Assembly: GCA_002401695.1 (NCBI GenBank)
Contig: NVTV01000001.1
Location: 296,501 to 360,500 of the forward strand
DNA from: Alphaproteobacteria bacterium
GTDB lineage: Bacteria > Pseudomonadota > Alphaproteobacteria > Micavibrionales > Micavibrionaceae
DNA length: 64,000 nt
Reading direction: 5' to 3'
Position numbers and translations under genes: made by a program. Positions 37,859-50,320 of the stretch are shown here, in pieces (within the stretch, counting starts at the first letter, position 1; every line of letters starts with the position of its first letter). The notes below the pieces were generated by a model that saw only the letters and a program-made list of their open reading frames with translations, ran no database searches and was not told where the DNA came from.

Positions 37859-37877
37859 GATAATGATAATCATTCTC
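37859..37877. promoter_or_regulatory. Fur-box-like palindrome
   Basis: GATAATGATAATCATTCTC differs from the classical 19-bp Fur consensus GATAATGATAATCATTATC at one position. It lies 58 bp upstream of the start at 37935. Fur with Fe(II) would repress here when iron is plentiful; this is inferred from the match, since I cannot see the Fur gene in the window. Confidence 0.75.
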
Positions 37878-37934: not shown

Positions 37935-38261
37935 ATGAGTGTATCATTTAGATTTTGTACGGGCTGTCTACTAAAGTTCTGCTCACATCTCTCTTACAGT
38001 AATGCACCTGATAAAGTGCGTTTCTTTGTACCCACCATAGACCACCTTATGCGAGATCATTTTATTTACCTTGAAATAAAACAAAGCGTACTAAGCCAGC
38101 TCTTGCAAAGAGAGACGCCTATAAGCGTGGATTTATCCGAATTTGCCGAAATTTTGCATATCCAGCGAGGCGAATGGCCCAGCGCGCAAGATCAAGAAAC
38201 TATTGAACAAATCTATAACCACACAACAGATGAACACAACATGACGCGCCTTGCCTCTTAG
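37935..38261 (+). CDS. small protein of unknown function behind a Fur box
   Basis: The 108-residue product has three Cys at the N-terminus (RFCTGCLLKFCSH, C8-x2-C11-x4-C16), then a helical body (LMRDHFIYLEIKQSVLSQLLQRETPISVDLSEFAEIL) and an acidic end. The start is supported by the strong AAGGAGG site, though that site lies in the hairpin described above. The cysteines are suggestive of metal or redox chemistry but do not match a known motif. The Fur box suggests iron control. It is convergent with tamB. Confidence 0.55.
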   Translation: MSVSFRFCTGCLLKFCSHLSYSNAPDKVRFFVPTIDHLMRDHFIYLEIKQSVLSQLLQRETPISVDLSEFAEILHIQRGEWPSAQDQETIEQIYNHTTDEHNMTRLAS

Positions 38262-42014: not shown

Positions 42015-42458
42015 CTAAAAAGGTAATTCAAGGCCACCAAGATCCGCCGAAGTACCAAAATCAGTGCCTCCACCAAAGAAACCACCCGACAAATCACTAC
42101 CGATTAAATCACTGCCCGCCGAAAAGGAATCACCAAGAAAAGTATCTGTAACACCAAATAAGCGGTGAATACCTGTTAAAACGTCTGTCATCACGCTTAA
42201 AACATTCGCACCGAATCCTTCTGAAAAGAACTCTGGCATCGCGCTTGATATCGGACTCATAAATTCATGTGCAAGATTAGCAATAGGCGATTCTGCAAAG
42301 CCGGAGCTATGTAGCAATCCAAAATCCAGAAAAGAATCCAGCATAAAAAAGCCGAAATACCAAGCGACCCCTTTCACTGCATACGAAAAAGCCGTACTCA
42401 GCCCGCCCGGGATCCAGCTCTCATCATCGTCTTCTTTTTTCATTGCATCCGCCGCCAT
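42015..42458 (-). CDS. protein of unknown function, minus arm of the Fur-controlled divergent locus
   Basis: The 147-residue product starts with a short acidic segment (KKEDDDESWIPGG), has a hydrophobic stretch (STAFSYAVKGVAWYFGFFMLDSFLDFG) at about residues 20-46 and an amphipathic middle (PISSAMPEFFSEGFGANVLSVMTDVL), and ends in Gly/Ser/Asp-rich low complexity (SDLIGSDLSGGFFGGGTDFG). It may be a single-pass or peripheral membrane protein. No family is recognised. Translation could start at the Met of KKEDDDES 15 bp further in. The gene is divergent from the exported protein gene at 42580; the shared promoter region carries two Fur-like boxes. Confidence 0.6.
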   Translation of the reverse strand: MAADAMKKEDDDESWIPGGLSTAFSYAVKGVAWYFGFFMLDSFLDFGLLHSSGFAESPIANLAHEFMSPISSAMPEFFSEGFGANVLSVMTDVLTGIHRLFGVTDTFLGDSFSAGSDLIGSDLSGGFFGGGTDFGTSADLGGLELPF

Positions 42459-42494
42459 TTTTAAAATCGACCTTTGATTCTTACCATATTACTA

Positions 42495-42515
42495 TTGCGA
42501 ATAATTATCATTGAC
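42495..42515. promoter_or_regulatory. Fur-box-like palindrome A
   Basis: The core GCGAATAATTATCATTG (within 42495-42515) matches Fur boxes of the TTGCGAATnATTATCATT form. It covers the -10 element TAATTA (42502-42507) of the minus-strand promoter and adjoins the plus-strand -35 element TTGACA (42511-42516). See the promoter entry. Confidence 0.7.
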
Positions 42516-42539
42516 AAAGGACATCGTCAAGCATTAAAT
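42502..42539. promoter_or_regulatory. interleaved divergent promoters
   Basis: Plus strand: TTGACA (42511-42516), 17-bp spacer, TTAAAT (42534-42539). Minus strand: TTGACG (42530 to 42525), 17-bp spacer, TAATTA (42507 to 42502). The two share the core between the -35 elements. A Fur-like box covers the minus -10, and another abuts the plus -10, so repression of both arms together would be expected. Seen in sequence; activity not tested. Confidence 0.55.
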
Positions 42540-42559
42540 TGCGAATGATTATCAATAAA
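42539..42559. promoter_or_regulatory. Fur-box-like palindrome B
   Basis: The core GCGAATGATTATCAATA (within 42539-42559) repeats box A with the same orientation at a 44-bp offset. It starts at the last base of the plus-strand -10 element TTAAAT and would cover the transcription start. The 42580 gene starts 21 bp downstream. Confidence 0.7.
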
Positions 42560-42579
42560 AACAAAGCCAGAGTAAAAAA

Positions 42580-43332
42580 ATGAATACAATCAAATCAAAA
42601 TTATTCAATACTATTGCCGGATTAGGGCTGATTATATCCATGTCCGCCGCCGCGCAACAACCCGCCGCCGCCGATGGCACAATTGACACCGCAAAAGAGG
42701 CGCTTTCTCTGCTCTACCCTGCGGCACTGGCTGTTGATAACGCACAGAAATCAGGCAACGTTGAAGCACAAAGAGCGGCAGGTATACGCCTGACAAACGC
42801 ACAACGACAAATCACTGAATTATTCGGCAAAGGCCCCGAAGGCTATCTCTCTTATAACTACCATGGGCGTGATGTAAACGTGCCAATTGATGGAGACCTT
42901 GCCTTCATCGGTGTGCAAGCCTTCACCGCCAACGAAGATATTGTAAGAGAAAACGGCAATGTCATCGAAAAAGGCCAAAAATATCTACAATTTTTCATGA
43001 AACCAACATTGGCGATGACAACACAATTCCATTTGGCCTTAAACGGTATAACCCCTGACCCGAATCGTGATGTTCAAAGAGATATGATGACCACATCCAA
43101 AACATCGATCTACCCGATTGGCCAAGCAAGCACAAAACAAATTGCAACGCATGTCTTTGCCATCCCCGAAAGCGTTTTCTCAGGCAATCCTAACGACCGT
43201 GATATCCTGCCAAGCATCCACAAAGTGCCTTATTTGCAAGTCATCAACGAGATGCTTGAAATATGTGAAGACAGGTTGGACGATCTGAATGACGATGCCA
43301 TGGACTTGTTCGCAAAGCCGGGACAGCCTTAA
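42580..43332 (+). CDS. exported protein of unknown function, plus arm of the Fur-controlled locus
   Basis: The 250-residue product has a signal peptide (LFNTIAGLGLIISMSAAA) followed by an Ala/Gln-rich stretch. The mature part is mostly helical, with YNYHGRDVNVPIDGDLAFIGV and TFAFAL-like stretches but no cysteine until ICEDRLDD near the C-terminus. I recognise no family. The gene lies 50 bp upstream of the 1229-residue protein on the same strand, so both are likely in one Fur-controlled transcript. Confidence 0.65.
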   Translation: MNTIKSKLFNTIAGLGLIISMSAAAQQPAAADGTIDTAKEALSLLYPAALAVDNAQKSGNVEAQRAAGIRLTNAQRQITELFGKGPEGYLSYNYHGRDVNVPIDGDLAFIGVQAFTANEDIVRENGNVIEKGQKYLQFFMKPTLAMTTQFHLALNGITPDPNRDVQRDMMTTSKTSIYPIGQASTKQIATHVFAIPESVFSGNPNDRDILPSIHKVPYLQVINEMLEICEDRLDDLNDDAMDLFAKPGQP

Positions 43333-43381
43333 AGAATTCTCCGCTCACTAAATCAATACAAAACAAACGTAGAAAACCGCT

Positions 43382-46300
43382 ATGACAACGCATGACATCA
43401 ACGAGCAGTTCCGCAAGAAAGGTACGTCATCGCCCAAAAATAAAATTGGGCTGGCGCATTTCCTGATTGATGAATCATTGCTGGATATGGCGCAAGATTA
43501 TGGTGCATATATAGAGGCCACACCCAACAAATCACAAAGCTACAGCATGACGTTTTTCAACGGCAACGGTGAGCAAAACTTTACAGGCAACCTATCAGAA
43601 CTAAGAACACATCTGCGCGCACTACACCAACCGATCAATGCGAGCATAGAAAAGGCCGTAAAAGAAAGCTCCGGCTATAACACGGTCAGTGCTGGCAGAA
43701 AAATAATGGCGCGCGACACACTCAACACACAAATCCAGAACGAGCGCAAAGATACCCTTGCCCTGTTTCGTGTCATGACAACAAATTCCGCGACCTTGCC
43801 TGAATTCGTAGACCCGAACGACGATGTAGAGCATCAACATGGCCCCGAGCATGAAATCCGCACCGCCGATATGTGGCGCCATACCTGTGAAATAGATGTA
43901 AAAGACCGCGCAAGGCACTATGATCCTGACAGAGACCCAACCGCGTTAGAGCCAGCAATTATAAAGAACAGCCGCTTCCACCCGTCCAAAGGATTCCAGT
44001 TTGAGCTGTCGCCAAAATTTATCGACCAAAACACCGAAAAAGACATTAACGTCACCGTTTGGGACATGATTTCCACCGTTAAAGGGTATGATGCCCGCAG
44101 CAAAGGCAATACGCTCCACTTCACACTGGAAGAAATGGATGATTTTTGCGCCCTTACCCACAATAATCTACAAACGCCGGAATTCATGGCTCTGCTTGAA
44201 GATACACGCCACCAAGAACGCGTAGAAGACGCCATTGAGCGCATTGAAACAGAAGTACAAGATATAAATTCACCAATTTACAAGGCCATTATCAAAGATG
44301 CGGCAATCCCCGAAGATAAAAAAAGTACCCTTAGAAACCTTATCATCGCCAGCTCTGCAATAACGCCTATTCTTGAATCAGACGCAATGAAAGCCCGATG
44401 GGCGCATTACTATTTCATGCAGAGAAAAGACCCCGCAATGGCGGATATTGTTGCTGAGGTAAATGTTCTCAACGATGTTGTTTCACATTACTCTGCCGCA
44501 GAGCATGTCACACAAGCACATATGGAGGCCATCGCGCTGGATCCTAATTTTCAGGAACTGCTATCCTTCCAGAGAAACATTGCGCATGCCATTGAGGATT
44601 CAATCCCGAAAATAAAACACCTGTCAAAAGAGGAAAAATCCGCGTATCAGGAAAGTTATCGTACCATTCAGAAAATGATAGGCGATTTGTCTATATCCGG
44701 ACAAAATATTGCAAATGAACATCTGGATGATGACAAAAAAACCGTAACAGATATTTTTGAAAGAACAATGGGCACAGGGCATGATGGTATCAGCCGCATG
44801 TCCTCTGAGTTTGTCGATAACACCATTGATTTCTTTCAGGACATTTATCAACGCCCCTTTGCCTCTAAGAAAGAATTTGTCGCCTCCGTCGCGGTTTTAG
44901 GCTGGCTGACATATTATATGCAATCAGGGGGCGACGCCGATGGCGCGAACCAATTGCTTGATGCCGCAAATACAATGAACGAAACCGTAGCCGCCGGAGA
45001 GGTGCCAGATGTCATGTCTTTTGATGACATAATGGGTAGTTTAAATGACGGCGGCGGCCTCAGCGAAACAGCAGCTAAAATCGAAGATCTGGATCTTAGC
45101 AAGTTAACCGAAGACGATAAAAAAGAGTTTGTACGCTTTATCCGCGATAACGGTCTGGATATTTCAGATGACCAGATGCGACAACTTTCTAACTACGTCC
45201 ATAATAATTACGGCATTTTAGGCGCTTACAAGCATTTCACTATTGATAACGCGGTCACAGGAACAACACTATCCCTTCTCGACCTTGCGAGAGTCGCGAC
45301 AGAAGGTCTGGTAGAAACCGTCGGCGGAACAGTGAATGAAGCGGCATCCTTCTTTAAATCCGCAAGCAACGGCGCGATTGATGCCGGCGACCAAACATTT
45401 AAAATCAATGTTTTCCAAACAACAATCGGCCATATTCCGATGATCGCCGCCCTTGCACTTATGGCACTGACATCAGGCCCCAGAAACGGCATCAAGCGTA
45501 TTTTCGGGTTCTTTGATGGTTTTACGAACTCAACGATTGCTACGCTGAAAGATCGTCCGCTTGCACTACCCGCCGCCGCACTAACAGCCCTGTTTGAGCC
45601 GCAAACCATTATTCTGGCCAATGAAGCGGATAAGGGTGGCTTTGCCTTCCCTCTGCTTGCCGGAATAGCTGCTGCGGCTTTGTGGAAACGCAAAGCAAAC
45701 TCAACAAAAGAACTTCACGAAGAAATAACCCAGAACGCGCGCACACTAACCAATCACCTCAATAATGATGAGGCACAGTTTAAATTACTGGATGCCCGCC
45801 CCGACATTGTTAGATCCCTATCACAGGCCGCCTTGCTGCAAGAACAAGTCAAAGCCGACCTGCCCGATGATGTCAAAGAAATATCTTATTCCAAAAAACG
45901 CTTGGTGAATAAACTATCGAGCAATTTCAAAATTGCCGCCGATAATCTGGAACCAACACTAACCGCTCTACGTAAGTTTGATTTAGCGATGGATATTTCA
46001 TCGCGCTATATGGGTGAAGAAAATAAAACTTACCACAATTTCATCCACAGTAAGATCGAATCATTCACGCAGGCTCTGAAAGATGTTCAAAACGAAAAGA
46101 TGAGCGTCAAAGAATTCGAACGCCACATCAACAAAGACTTGAAAAAAGTGATGCAAGCACAAGCCTTCCTCGGCGGTAATGCTGAGATATATAATGCGGT
46201 GTACAAGAAGGCCCCATCAGAAAGAATGATGGATCGCTTCAGCCTTGCCGGAGATGTGCAATATAATATCCAAGCGCGCAAAGAAAGCTTTAAGCAAAAC

Positions 46301-47071
46301 AGCCTGAACATTCGCGCCCTTAAAGAGGAAAGAAACAAGATCGGTAAGGGACATATCGACTTCCCGCACATCCCGCCGCATCAACGCAACAGCCTGACAC
46401 AAGCCTCATACACCCTAAGCAATGCCATCGACAAACTGGACATCAGCGCGAAGATTGCATGGGAACGCACAAAGCAAGGATGGAATCCCCTCTGGGATAA
46501 AATTGCACGTAGTGCGCGCGGCGTTCAAAGTATTACCAGAGAAATCCCGCATAAGAAAAAGGCAGGTGTGGCCCTTATCGGTGCTGGTCTCGCCCTTGCC
46601 GGTGCAGATACAGCAGGCCTTGGCGGAGAAGCTCTGCAAAACATCATCCCACACGCAGGATACAGCCTCGGCGTTCTTGGGTCGACGGGTATGTTCTTAC
46701 TGATTAACCCCATTGATGACCTTGTTTTCGCGCATTTAGGTCTGGGTGGATTAGGGTATGGGGCTGGCACAACAGTCTATGGCGCCAATAAATTCGTCGC
46801 AAGACCGGCCTTTAATTACGCGCGCGAGCAAGTAGAATCCTTTATGGAAAAATATGGCAAGACCAGCCAATCACTAGACATTGACCCCGAAGAGGTAGAA
46901 CACATTCAAATTCCAGTGAACTATCTGGGCGCATTATCCGAAACCTGCATTCTTTGTACAATATGCCTTAAAGAAAATGAGGAAACAGAGTGCCCGCAAC
47001 AGATAAATCTGGCACAATTACTCGTCGAAGAACAAACAAAAGAAGAGCATTTTGAAGCATCGACACAATAA
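43382..47071 (+). CDS. very large membrane-associated protein of unknown function
   Basis: The 1229-residue product is mostly helical, with coiled-coil-like segments (residues about 270-490 and 800-1050) and hydrophobic stretches near residues 497-515 (SVAVLGWLTYYM), 684-700 (IPMIAALALMALTS), 725-765 (AAALTALFEP to LLAGIAAAALW), 1060-1075 (GVALIGAGLALAG) and 1090-1125. A His-rich patch (VEHQHGPEHE) lies near residue 155. The C-terminus has Cys1189-x2-Cys1192-x2-Cys1195-x8-Cys1204 (ETCILCTICLKENEETECPQQ region), which could bind metal or an iron-sulfur cluster. No known family is recognised. Its position behind Fur boxes suggests it is made in iron limitation. Confidence 0.7.
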   Translation: MTTHDINEQFRKKGTSSPKNKIGLAHFLIDESLLDMAQDYGAYIEATPNKSQSYSMTFFNGNGEQNFTGNLSELRTHLRALHQPINASIEKAVKESSGYNTVSAGRKIMARDTLNTQIQNERKDTLALFRVMTTNSATLPEFVDPNDDVEHQHGPEHEIRTADMWRHTCEIDVKDRARHYDPDRDPTALEPAIIKNSRFHPSKGFQFELSPKFIDQNTEKDINVTVWDMISTVKGYDARSKGNTLHFTLEEMDDFCALTHNNLQTPEFMALLEDTRHQERVEDAIERIETEVQDINSPIYKAIIKDAAIPEDKKSTLRNLIIASSAITPILESDAMKARWAHYYFMQRKDPAMADIVAEVNVLNDVVSHYSAAEHVTQAHMEAIALDPNFQELLSFQRNIAHAIEDSIPKIKHLSKEEKSAYQESYRTIQKMIGDLSISGQNIANEHLDDDKKTVTDIFERTMGTGHDGISRMSSEFVDNTIDFFQDIYQRPFASKKEFVASVAVLGWLTYYMQSGGDADGANQLLDAANTMNETVAAGEVPDVMSFDDIMGSLNDGGGLSETAAKIEDLDLSKLTEDDKKEFVRFIRDNGLDISDDQMRQLSNYVHNNYGILGAYKHFTIDNAVTGTTLSLLDLARVATEGLVETVGGTVNEAASFFKSASNGAIDAGDQTFKINVFQTTIGHIPMIAALALMALTSGPRNGIKRIFGFFDGFTNSTIATLKDRPLALPAAALTALFEPQTIILANEADKGGFAFPLLAGIAAAALWKRKANSTKELHEEITQNARTLTNHLNNDEAQFKLLDARPDIVRSLSQAALLQEQVKADLPDDVKEISYSKKRLVNKLSSNFKIAADNLEPTLTALRKFDLAMDISSRYMGEENKTYHNFIHSKIESFTQALKDVQNEKMSVKEFERHINKDLKKVMQAQAFLGGNAEIYNAVYKKAPSERMMDRFSLAGDVQYNIQARKESFKQNSLNIRALKEERNKIGKGHIDFPHIPPHQRNSLTQASYTLSNAIDKLDISAKIAWERTKQGWNPLWDKIARSARGVQSITREIPHKKKAGVALIGAGLALAGADTAGLGGEALQNIIPHAGYSLGVLGSTGMFLLINPIDDLVFAHLGLGGLGYGAGTTVYGANKFVARPAFNYAREQVESFMEKYGKTSQSLDIDPEEVEHIQIPVNYLGALSETCILCTICLKENEETECPQQINLAQLLVEEQTKEEHFEASTQ

Positions 47072-47086
47072 GCCCAATTTACGCCG

Positions 47087-50000
47087 CTACTTCGCCTCTG
47101 ACACAATCGAAATATCTGCCTGCGCTTGTTTTATATAAGACGGATAAATTTCAACTTTACAATATTGCCCATACGCCATCAAAGCGTGACAGCGATTATA
47201 AGCCTGCTTTACCGTTATCCCCTGTAAACCCACACGCAAAGTATGCTTTCCTGTTCTGACATCTGCATAACTCTGTGCTGGAGGCACAAACAGATCCCCA
47301 CCCGTCAACATCGTATTATAGCGTGATTGCAATTTATACCAAACTACTGACATCAACAGCCTCGAATTATATTCCCCCAAATTCAAGACAAGATCATATT
47401 CATCCTTTGAAAAATCAATATGAGGGTGACGCGCCTTATAATCATCCAGATCAGACACAAAGGCACTTGGAACGTCACCTTCTCCCATATCAACGTAGAT
47501 ATCATTACCGTAAATAACCGTACCATCATAAGCAATTTCAATTTGCTGAGGCGCAGGCCTGATAAACTTCCCACGCTCTGCGCTTTTCTCATCTACAATC
47601 AAAAGATACCGCCCCGGTGGAATAAAAGAGAAATAGTAAAATCCAGAGGAATCCGTAGAGACACTCTCTTGCAAATCTCCTTCGGCATTATACAATTTCA
47701 AACGAATATTCCGCAAAGCCACAGACTTTGAAATGCGTGCTTCTTCCCCGACACCATCCCCCTGCGGTAATGAGACAGCGCGTGTGTAAACACTGCCATC
47801 TAACTCACCGGATATATGTATCGGGAAATTAACCTCTACTATATTCCCCTCACGCGGTACAACAGACACCCCATCCATCCCCGCAACCCACGTCGGATCC
47901 TGCAAAGTATCAGGATCAACAAACACATCTGTTAAACGCAATCTGCCCATACGCGTAAACAAAGCCATACCATTAACATCCGTAGATTCGCGTCCACCAT
48001 TTTGAGGGGCGCGCACAACGACGCCTTCCAAGGGCTCGTCATCACCATTAAAGATACCATCGCCATCCTTATCCAGATAAACGAAAGCACTCACACTGCC
48101 GGAATTTGTAATATTGTAGTCATATAGCTTTACACGTCCTTGCACCGGATCACGTAAAAGACTAAAGCGCGTATCCAAACCTGCAAAAAATTCTTCTTTA
48201 TTATTATAAGTTACCCTTGGTGAAATACGGGCAAAGCCTGCCTGCCAATCCAGTTTTGCCGAATATTGCGTCAATGATGTATCGTAACGTTTATCAACCT
48301 TCAATTCCAACTTAACTTTGTTGGTAAAGTCCCGTCGGTATGATGCTAAAACACTTTTAAGCTCATTATCCGGCTTTAATTCATAATCCGCCAAAAACCG
48401 CACATGGTTACGCCCATATGCACCCGTAACACTTGTTGTGGAGGTAAGCGTATCATCTTGAAGTATTGAACCTGTGGAATGTATAAGCTGTTCATTCAAA
48501 TATAAGTACTTCACTGTTGTATTGATGCCCACTGTTGATCGCAGGCTATACTCATCATTTGTATCCAACAGATAGTCTGTAGAAAAATTGTATCGGGGAC
48601 TCCTGCCCAACGCAAACGGCAACGGACCGTTTACATTCAGAGTATGGCGCAAAGTACCTATGTCACTGTCACCAGCACCCTGCACATCAAAATTTTTGCC
48701 ACGCCATCTTAACGCACTATTGACTTTATGCTTCCCGAAATCACGACGCGCGACAAGCTGCGCCGACATATCGCCCTCATCATCAACAGCCACCCGTGCA
48801 TTAAGCAACGCCTGCTTTACCACGGCAGACACTCCAAGGTTTCCGACGCTATCACGATCGCCCGCACTCTGATCAACGGTGCTGCGCAGTCCCGAACTCA
48901 AAGTAATACCATCTACAACTGAATATTCATAAAGCGCAGACACGTTAATATTCGTATCTTCACCCACACTCGAATCAGCCCCAAACTTATTATACGTATT
49001 CTTTTTATCCAGACTTATAGAAACGTCATAAATCCCCCCTCCATGAGAAAGAAGATCACGATCAACAGGGATGTATAGATTTTCTTCCCTGACTTCCCCT
49101 TGCGGACCGTAGAATATCAAACGAAAGGCATTATCAGAGTGAAATAAATCAACATCCGAAAATTGATAGAATCCGTCATCACCAATTTCCTTAAGCCCTA
49201 TAAGCTGGCTATCCCGATATAATTCGACATCCCATCCGGGAAACCCTGTGCCGGATATTCCGGTTGTCGGTGTACTAAATGTCCGCAAAGAATCCGTATT
49301 TGTTATTCTGACCCCTAATTCTTGAGATGAAACCCCACCCAAAGGTACGTTCGTCGTCGTAATATCACCGACCTCGAACCGACGCGCCTTTAATGCCCCT
49401 AAAAGATCAGCATCCAAGGATTCCTGCTTATACTTCATCCTTACATTTTTTATATTATCAACATCATTAGCCTGTATTTGCGTTGATAATGTCCCATATG
49501 CAAAATCCCCGGCAGAGCGAAAGGTTGCACTATGAGACGTGCTAGCATCTTTAGTTTCCCCATGTTTTCGATACACAGAGCGTATTGCGACATCCACAGA
49601 AGGTACATTTAGAGCTGTATAACCATCATTGAGGCGAGGACGCGAGGGCTTCGGCACTTTATACCCGCCATGCATGTCCTGCCTACGCCTGTACTTTTCC
49701 TGAATCGGTAATAATTCCTCAGACGTAATACGAAGGTCTTGTGCAGAAACAATAGGCTTAAACTCAAAGTCCATCCACGTTCCCAATTCAGCCGCAGGAA
49801 CCAAGACATCACCATCTTCAATAAAAACATTTGCCGATAAATTAAACTCACCAACATCGGTACGTACAATTCCAGCATTAAGGTCCAATGAGAATTTTTT
49901 ATCTTCCCTGACATACCATCCTTCAACAGTCTTCTTTTCAAGATCAATAACAAAAGGAATCTGAAGCACTTCACTTATATCACGCAGGGATAGCAAAACC

Positions 50001-50320
50001 TTTTCATCCTTCACAACACCATATATAACACCGTCTATACGAAGGTTATTTCCAAGAATTGGTTGCAATAGCAGGGTTTCCCCATCCAACAAAATATTTG
50101 TTTCCATGGTGGCGACAGATACATCCAGATAACTATTTCCACGCGCTAGCCCTGTTTTCATTTTCGAGACAAAAGAGCGCGCCAAAGCCAAACGTTTCTG
50201 ATTCTTTACAAAAGCAGTGTGCCCGACATCCCCCGATTGCTGCGCAGCCAAAGGCCACGGCGCAAAAGCCGCAAACATAAAGACACCATACAAAAAATAA
50301 ATTCTAAAAGAATATTTCAT
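47087..50320 (-). CDS. chaperone-usher-type outer membrane usher with SdrD-B and SPOR-like additions
   Basis: The 1077-residue product has a signal peptide (FRIYFLYGVFMFAAFAPWPLAA). Residues about 90-215 resemble a copper amine oxidase-type N-terminal domain (LLSLRDISEVLQIPFVIDLEKKTVEG, VLVPAAELGTWMDF). A long usher-like barrel follows (about 240-700: LGVRITNTDSL, GFPGWDVELYRDSQLIGLKEIGDDGFYQFSDVDL, then repeated strands). An SdrD-B-like Ca-type domain (YLDKDGDGIFNGDDEPLEGVVVRAP) lies near residue 745, a carboxypeptidase-regulatory-like domain near 870-905, and a SPOR-like end near 1027-1065. The gene is read from 50320 toward 47087, downstream of the pilin/chaperone pair but with the 50647 pilin gene inverted between. 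Confidence 0.75.
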   Translation of the reverse strand: MKYSFRIYFLYGVFMFAAFAPWPLAAQQSGDVGHTAFVKNQKRLALARSFVSKMKTGLARGNSYLDVSVATMETNILLDGETLLLQPILGNNLRIDGVIYGVVKDEKVLLSLRDISEVLQIPFVIDLEKKTVEGWYVREDKKFSLDLNAGIVRTDVGEFNLSANVFIEDGDVLVPAAELGTWMDFEFKPIVSAQDLRITSEELLPIQEKYRRRQDMHGGYKVPKPSRPRLNDGYTALNVPSVDVAIRSVYRKHGETKDASTSHSATFRSAGDFAYGTLSTQIQANDVDNIKNVRMKYKQESLDADLLGALKARRFEVGDITTTNVPLGGVSSQELGVRITNTDSLRTFSTPTTGISGTGFPGWDVELYRDSQLIGLKEIGDDGFYQFSDVDLFHSDNAFRLIFYGPQGEVREENLYIPVDRDLLSHGGGIYDVSISLDKKNTYNKFGADSSVGEDTNINVSALYEYSVVDGITLSSGLRSTVDQSAGDRDSVGNLGVSAVVKQALLNARVAVDDEGDMSAQLVARRDFGKHKVNSALRWRGKNFDVQGAGDSDIGTLRHTLNVNGPLPFALGRSPRYNFSTDYLLDTNDEYSLRSTVGINTTVKYLYLNEQLIHSTGSILQDDTLTSTTSVTGAYGRNHVRFLADYELKPDNELKSVLASYRRDFTNKVKLELKVDKRYDTSLTQYSAKLDWQAGFARISPRVTYNNKEEFFAGLDTRFSLLRDPVQGRVKLYDYNITNSGSVSAFVYLDKDGDGIFNGDDEPLEGVVVRAPQNGGRESTDVNGMALFTRMGRLRLTDVFVDPDTLQDPTWVAGMDGVSVVPREGNIVEVNFPIHISGELDGSVYTRAVSLPQGDGVGEEARISKSVALRNIRLKLYNAEGDLQESVSTDSSGFYYFSFIPPGRYLLIVDEKSAERGKFIRPAPQQIEIAYDGTVIYGNDIYVDMGEGDVPSAFVSDLDDYKARHPHIDFSKDEYDLVLNLGEYNSRLLMSVVWYKLQSRYNTMLTGGDLFVPPAQSYADVRTGKHTLRVGLQGITVKQAYNRCHALMAYGQYCKVEIYPSYIKQAQADISIVSEAK

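Follow-up and report, generated by a model that had tools for sequence, protein, structure and literature searches.

A three-gene locus without a recognised protein family

The subject of this analysis is a divergent locus of three genes in a 64,000-nucleotide stretch of DNA, referred to here as the window, from a bacterium of the alphaproteobacterial family Micavibrionaceae. The locus encodes a small bitopic membrane protein of 147 residues, an exported protein of 250 residues and a large membrane protein of 1229 residues (the big protein). A preliminary description, made from the sequence alone, had placed these genes around a shared promoter region with two Fur-like boxes, found no family for any of the three proteins and proposed an iron-starvation locus. 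The trio is found to be kept together in related genomes and is probably an unrecognised way to cope with metal starvation. Its features are listed in Table 1.

The three open reading frames (ORFs) of 147, 250 and 1229 residues are present exactly where they had been placed, and the protein types also hold. The 250-residue protein has a signal-peptide-like start, the 1229-residue protein carries hydrophobic segments, and the 147-residue protein has a tail rich in Gly, Ser and Asp. The ratio of non-synonymous to synonymous substitution rates (dN/dS) was calculated against the nearest relative, locus L012 of the environmental alphaproteobacterial metagenome-assembled genome NORP84. It came to 0.10 for the 1229-residue protein, 0.16 for the 250-residue protein and 0.22 for the 147-residue protein, and the three ORFs are therefore regarded as real genes.

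Table 1. Features of the three-gene locus and of the related Zur-type pair; coordinates refer to the window unless a locus is named
Feature	Position	Strand	Remarks
Small bitopic membrane protein gene, 147 aa	42015..42458	-	One hydrophobic helix; homologues in 25/25 trio loci
Shared divergent promoter region, 121 bp		42459..42579	no strand	Between the 147-aa and 250-aa genes
Fur-like box 1, GCGAATAATTATCATTGAC	42497..42515	+	Overlaps the -35 element of the rightward promoter; 14/19 against the E. coli consensus
Sigma-70-type promoter TTGACA-N17-TTAAAT, exported and big genes	42511..42539	+	Overlaps box 1, abuts box 2
Fur-like box 2, GCGAATGATTATCAATAAA	42541..42559	+	Immediately downstream of the -10 element; 14/19 against the E. 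coli consensus
Exported protein gene, 250 aa	42580..43332	+	Signal-peptide-like N-terminus
Large membrane protein gene, 1229 aa	43382..47071	+	Several hydrophobic segments (hydropathy, charge)
Motif A, residues 676-684 NVFQTTIGH, family form N..[E/Q]N..H	45407..45433	+	Opens the second membrane segment
Motif B, residues 1109-1118 NPIDDLVFAH, family form N..ED...H	46706..46735	+	In the C-terminal membrane hairpin
Zur-type pair genes (exported, small)	L094 7066-7455 and 7545-7844	- and +	Divergent, beside zur

The absence of a recognised family was borne out by the searches. None of the three window proteins has a family match in Pfam, NCBIfam or PHROGs, and 16-17 diverse relatives per family gave nothing consistent against Pfam, the only collection against which big proteins other than the window's own were scanned. 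The shorter big proteins described below likewise have no Pfam family match, and the exported family has none in NCBIfam. When profiles of the exported family and of the long and short big proteins were run against PDB sequences, no relative was returned; matches at expectation values (E) of 0.2-0.8 were dismissed as chance. Among the known metal transporters, ZIP, NRAMP, FeoB, ABC and TonB-receptor families were not matched in Pfam or NCBIfam, nor was the 1229-residue protein found to be homologous to a known non-iron family. A few weak Pfam hits (DUF3839, Baculo_p24, Grg1, DUF7553) and a holin model matching one small protein were dropped, because they were isolated and not shared across the family members. 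AlphaFold2, run on alignments of two sequences only, gave a mean predicted local distance difference test score of 37 for the exported protein and 33 for the big one, models of too low a quality to be of use. Literature searches did not return a description of the trio. At the level of sequence, the protein families and their layout would be new.

Conservation of the trio

The distribution of the trio was followed in samples of the window's order (142 genomes, one per species), class (385 genomes) and phylum (398 genomes). A profile of the big protein alone detected 16 genomes of the order; a more sensitive profile, together with a second one built from short members, added nine more. The trio is thus present in 25 of the 142 genomes, once in each, and all of them belong to the window's own family. 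Outside that family, no relative was found among the class-wide genomes, only the window itself matched in the phylum-wide sample, and plasmids and viral contigs held no relatives of the trio.

The layout is identical in 25/25 genomes: the divergent small gene, the exported gene and then the big gene, which confirms that the three are kept together. The big protein occurs in a long form in 16 genomes and in a short form (about 540-710 residues) in 9, and no genome with both was found. Homology of the two forms is evident from hhalign (E 1e-10, probability 97%). Protein identity among the trio relatives is mostly about 20%. The pairwise distances of the three proteins correlate across loci (r 0.78, 0.68 and 0.77), and 0 of 2000 permutations gave values as high, as would fit co-inherited partners. 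At one locus (L053 6513-9919) the big gene lies in two frames and is possibly a pseudogene, broken or misassembled.

Fur boxes in the divergent promoter regions

Both Fur-like boxes of the preliminary description were found in the shared promoter region. The 121-bp gap holds two sites of at least 13/19, as against a mean of 0.15 in shuffled sequence. Each of the 25 divergent gaps has between one and three Fur-like boxes, with best matches of 13-17/19, while among 102 other intergenic gaps of the same loci only 2 reached 14/19. Since the proteins are mostly just about 20% identical, this conservation of the boxes is not a simple drag of sequence. Promoter-like pairs are present rightward in 20/25 gaps and leftward in 24/25, against a control rate of 38% per strand. 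In many relatives the -10 element of a promoter of the form TTGAC[A/T]-N17-TAT[C/T]A falls within a Fur box.

The genome also encodes a Fur protein (PF01475, E 8e-40), the top PDB matches of which are Fur proteins. A genome-wide scan gave 86 Fur-like sites against 13 with a reversed control pattern, and box 1 was among the best eight. The scan also landed upstream of two FTR1-family permease genes (L088 2597-4214 and L089 1838-2617), one of them preceded by a cupredoxin gene, and this serves as a positive control. Fur control of the trio is hence strongly predicted, and the earlier suggestion of such control is upheld by the boxes in all 25 gaps, the Fur gene and the motif beside the two FTR1-family genes.

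The top match of the same scan is GAGAATGATTATCATTATC, with zero mismatches, at 37859-37877 of the window. It lies just upstream of an unannotated ORF of 108 residues (37935-38261, + strand) without a Pfam match, which is probably another Fur target.

Conserved residues of the exported and big proteins

The exported proteins were aligned as a set of 27 sequences, namely the 25 trio members and two proteins of the Zur-type pair described in the next section. Two His residues are invariant (27/27), usually spaced as H-hydrophobic-x(2,3)-H. A Cys close to the C-terminus is conserved in 26/27 and an Asp in 24/27, with a Cys directly following that Asp in 20/27. When the sequences were shuffled and realigned, no column held more than 11 His. 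The equivalents in the window protein are the invariant H191 and H214 and the near-invariant C229 and D104. From this residue set, we infer that the exported protein may bind iron or zinc.

The big protein has no signal peptide. The topology predicted from hydropathy and charge begins with a soluble N-terminal part and a membrane segment at about 500-515, followed by a periplasmic part and a segment at about 677-695. Then come a large helical cytoplasmic part, hairpin segments at about 1062-1126 and a Cys-containing tail. Motifs A and B are recognised in nearly all 25 big proteins, where they open the second segment and the hairpin, respectively. Among the long members, aligned in 17 rows, only H684 and N1109 are invariant, and D1113 is nearly so. 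In the short proteins, the part predicted to be periplasmic also contains a CH[DN]H...HC-like pattern. In a repeat test without preselection on the short set, site A was the top match to B, its score of 17.8 exceeding the 15.7 that 60 column shuffles reached at most, while no convincing repeat emerged in the long or combined set. That the two motifs form an internal repeat is offered as a suggestion only.

A Zur-type sister pair

A gene for an exported protein and one for a small membrane protein form a second divergent pair beside the second FUR-family gene of the same genome (L094, G000:C8). PDB matches identify this regulator as Zur (4mtd, E. coli Zur, E 9e-27). The same pair is found in the same position in one relative that also carries the trio (L137 6826-7549). 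When compared with the trio proteins by hhalign, the pair gave E 2e-11 for the exported and 8e-6 for the small protein, whereas reversed controls gave 0.2-0.5. With hmmsearch the values were about 1e-7 and 1e-6 to 1e-5, while none of 400 shuffled copies did better than 0.15. The gaps of the pair contain GTTATGTTATAAC and GTTATATTATAAC, which agree with a Zur consensus from the literature at 12 and 13 of 13 positions. No Fur box is present in these gaps, the best Fur match being 10/19, and no big gene accompanies the pair at L094 or L137. In a further profile search the pair was convincing in these two genomes only, with weak matches elsewhere.

The small and exported pair thus appears to occur in one version regulated by iron and another regulated by zinc, an indication that the system deals with metals. 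The proposal of a dedicated iron-starvation locus outside the known uptake systems stands in so far as no known family was matched. Its restriction to iron may be too narrow, because the homologous pair beside zur has a Zur box.

Exchange of the cassette between species

The genes flanking the cassette vary in almost every genome, and the tree of the big protein ignores genus, five members of the window's genus being placed in four positions. In three species of one genus (L050, L156 and L157) the cassette is flanked by an usher-like gene on one side and a tRNA-Phe/ribonuclease-G-like gene on the other. The ribonuclease side is 94-98% identical among them, and the usher is 96% identical between two and 54% in the third. 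At this locus one species carries a long cassette, and the other two carry a short cassette in the opposite orientation. A second pair, L158 and L159, has the same inversion. A tRNA gene is located within 300 bp of a cassette end in 7/25 loci (L012, L050, L051, L052, L055, L156 and L157), and five tRNA types are represented (Pro, Phe, Gly, Trp and Ala). No integrase was noticed beside the cassette. Synteny and tree together demonstrate, on comparative grounds, that species exchange the trio horizontally as one block.

Possible functions of the trio

The leading reading, held tentatively, is that of a metal-starvation cassette by which iron is captured in the envelope and helped across the inner membrane. 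It is strongly predicted from the sequence that, when iron is plentiful, Fur-Fe would occupy the boxes overlapping the divergent promoters and so keep all three genes silent. When iron is low, the small, exported and big proteins would all be made. The His/His/Cys/Asp set of the exported protein, the conservation of which is evident, could then capture the metal in the periplasm. In the inner membrane, the N..[E/Q]N..H and N..ED...H motifs of the big protein may form a metal path or a docking site, and the small bitopic protein may assemble a complex with the other two. The Zur-type pair further suggests that the small and exported proteins might be a binding pair made in metal-specific versions, possibly sharing a single big protein. 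The extended proposal of a new importer class, in which one big protein is served by interchangeable Fur (iron) and Zur (zinc) pairs, is considered unlikely.

The nearest known systems share some of these traits. Like the EfeUOB/FTR1 permeases (PF03239), the trio has predicted Fur-type control and an exported protein, there an iron-handling one, adjoining an inner-membrane protein, there with paired acidic motifs. However, no big protein scanned against Pfam matches PF03239, and Pfam shows neither a cupredoxin nor an M75 peptidase domain in the exported family. The motifs N..[E/Q]N..H and N..ED...H differ from the REGLE of FTR1, the big protein is two to four times larger, and the trio adds a divergent small membrane protein and has a Zur version of its pair. 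MavN of Legionella is a large iron-regulated effector of iron transport. It resembles the big protein, itself predicted to be iron-regulated, in being a large, multi-segmented membrane protein without a classical signal. The trio differs from this description by its layout with an exported partner, and no Pfam or NCBIfam match points to MavN. The Zur-type pair, with its exported gene adjoining zur, is reminiscent of ZepA of Anabaena, which is exported under zinc starvation (PMC10957091). By description, ZepA is set apart as a stand-alone exoprotein, whereas the pair includes a membrane protein encoded divergently and is related to a cassette predicted to be under Fur control.

Several observations weigh against a role in metal import. 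No transporter family is matched at sequence level in Pfam or NCBIfam, and no outer-membrane receptor or ATPase was found to travel with the cassette. With a mean hydropathy of mostly 1.4-1.8, the membrane segments are no more than moderately hydrophobic, and the internal repeat of motifs A and B is weak in the short set (E 0.04) and absent in the long set. The window's exported protein reads D-G-D, with Gly after D104, where most relatives have D-C-D. Lastly, the swapping of cassettes at one locus is what one would sooner expect of proteins directed at other organisms than of a housekeeping permease.

This last point leads to the strongest rival, an iron-starvation interaction cassette, the probability of which is put as rather low. 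Here, the big protein would either be secreted or injected as an effector that inserts into membranes, or form a variable component of the surface, in both cases directed against competitors or hosts when iron is scarce, and the exported and small proteins would act as chaperone, anchor or immunity partner. Such a role would agree with the missing signal peptide, the large soluble N-terminus and the only moderately hydrophobic segments of the big protein. It would also agree with a cassette that is patchy (25/142), highly divergent, traded between genera and often near a tRNA gene, that was replaced and inverted at one locus between flanks 94-98% identical, and that in the nearest relative adjoins a type I secretion locus. 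On the other hand, no toxin, effector or immunity family was matched, the Zur-type pair stands without a big protein, and one would not expect an immunity gene to be under the same strict repression by Fur. The exported protein's His/Cys set would also be left unexplained.

A non-transporter module is likewise thought improbable. In such a module the exported protein would sense periplasmic metal and signal via the cytoplasmic parts of the big protein, or the trio would remodel the envelope. The large, mostly helical regions outside the membrane segments (in part from a low-confidence model), the metal-binding-like residues of the exported protein and the Fur and Zur versions of the pair would all suit it. 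Yet Pfam showed no kinase, cyclase, GGDEF or receptor domain, and the E/D/N/H residues at the membrane segments are better conserved than the soluble parts. That these are ordinary lineage-specific hypothetical genes with chance Fur-like sequence accords with their confinement to one bacterial family, but is hardly credible, as the boxes persist in 25/25 loci whose proteins are only about 20% identical, dN/dS is 0.10-0.22 and the layout is strictly conserved.

The occurrence of Fur- and Zur-type versions within one genome provides a direct, testable handle on function. As a metal importer, which is the leading reading, the trio would represent a type of system beyond the siderophore, haem, Feo, FTR1 and ABC classes. 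As an interaction cassette, it would connect the swapping of cassettes with iron starvation in a family of Alphaproteobacteria that has received little study.

Neighbouring genes

The locus had been described as lying between tamA and a pilus locus. One flank is indeed tamB-tamA (PF04357, PF01103) and the opposite flank is an usher-like gene, but this position is incidental, because the neighbours differ in nearly all genomes. A mechanistic tie to pili was rejected, since an usher gene adjoins only 4/25 trio loci. The usher-like protein of the window (47087-50320) has no Pfam usher match, its Pfam matches being SdrD_B/SpaA-like domains. Its identity with the usher-like proteins adjoining the cassette in L050, L156 and L157 is 37-38%.

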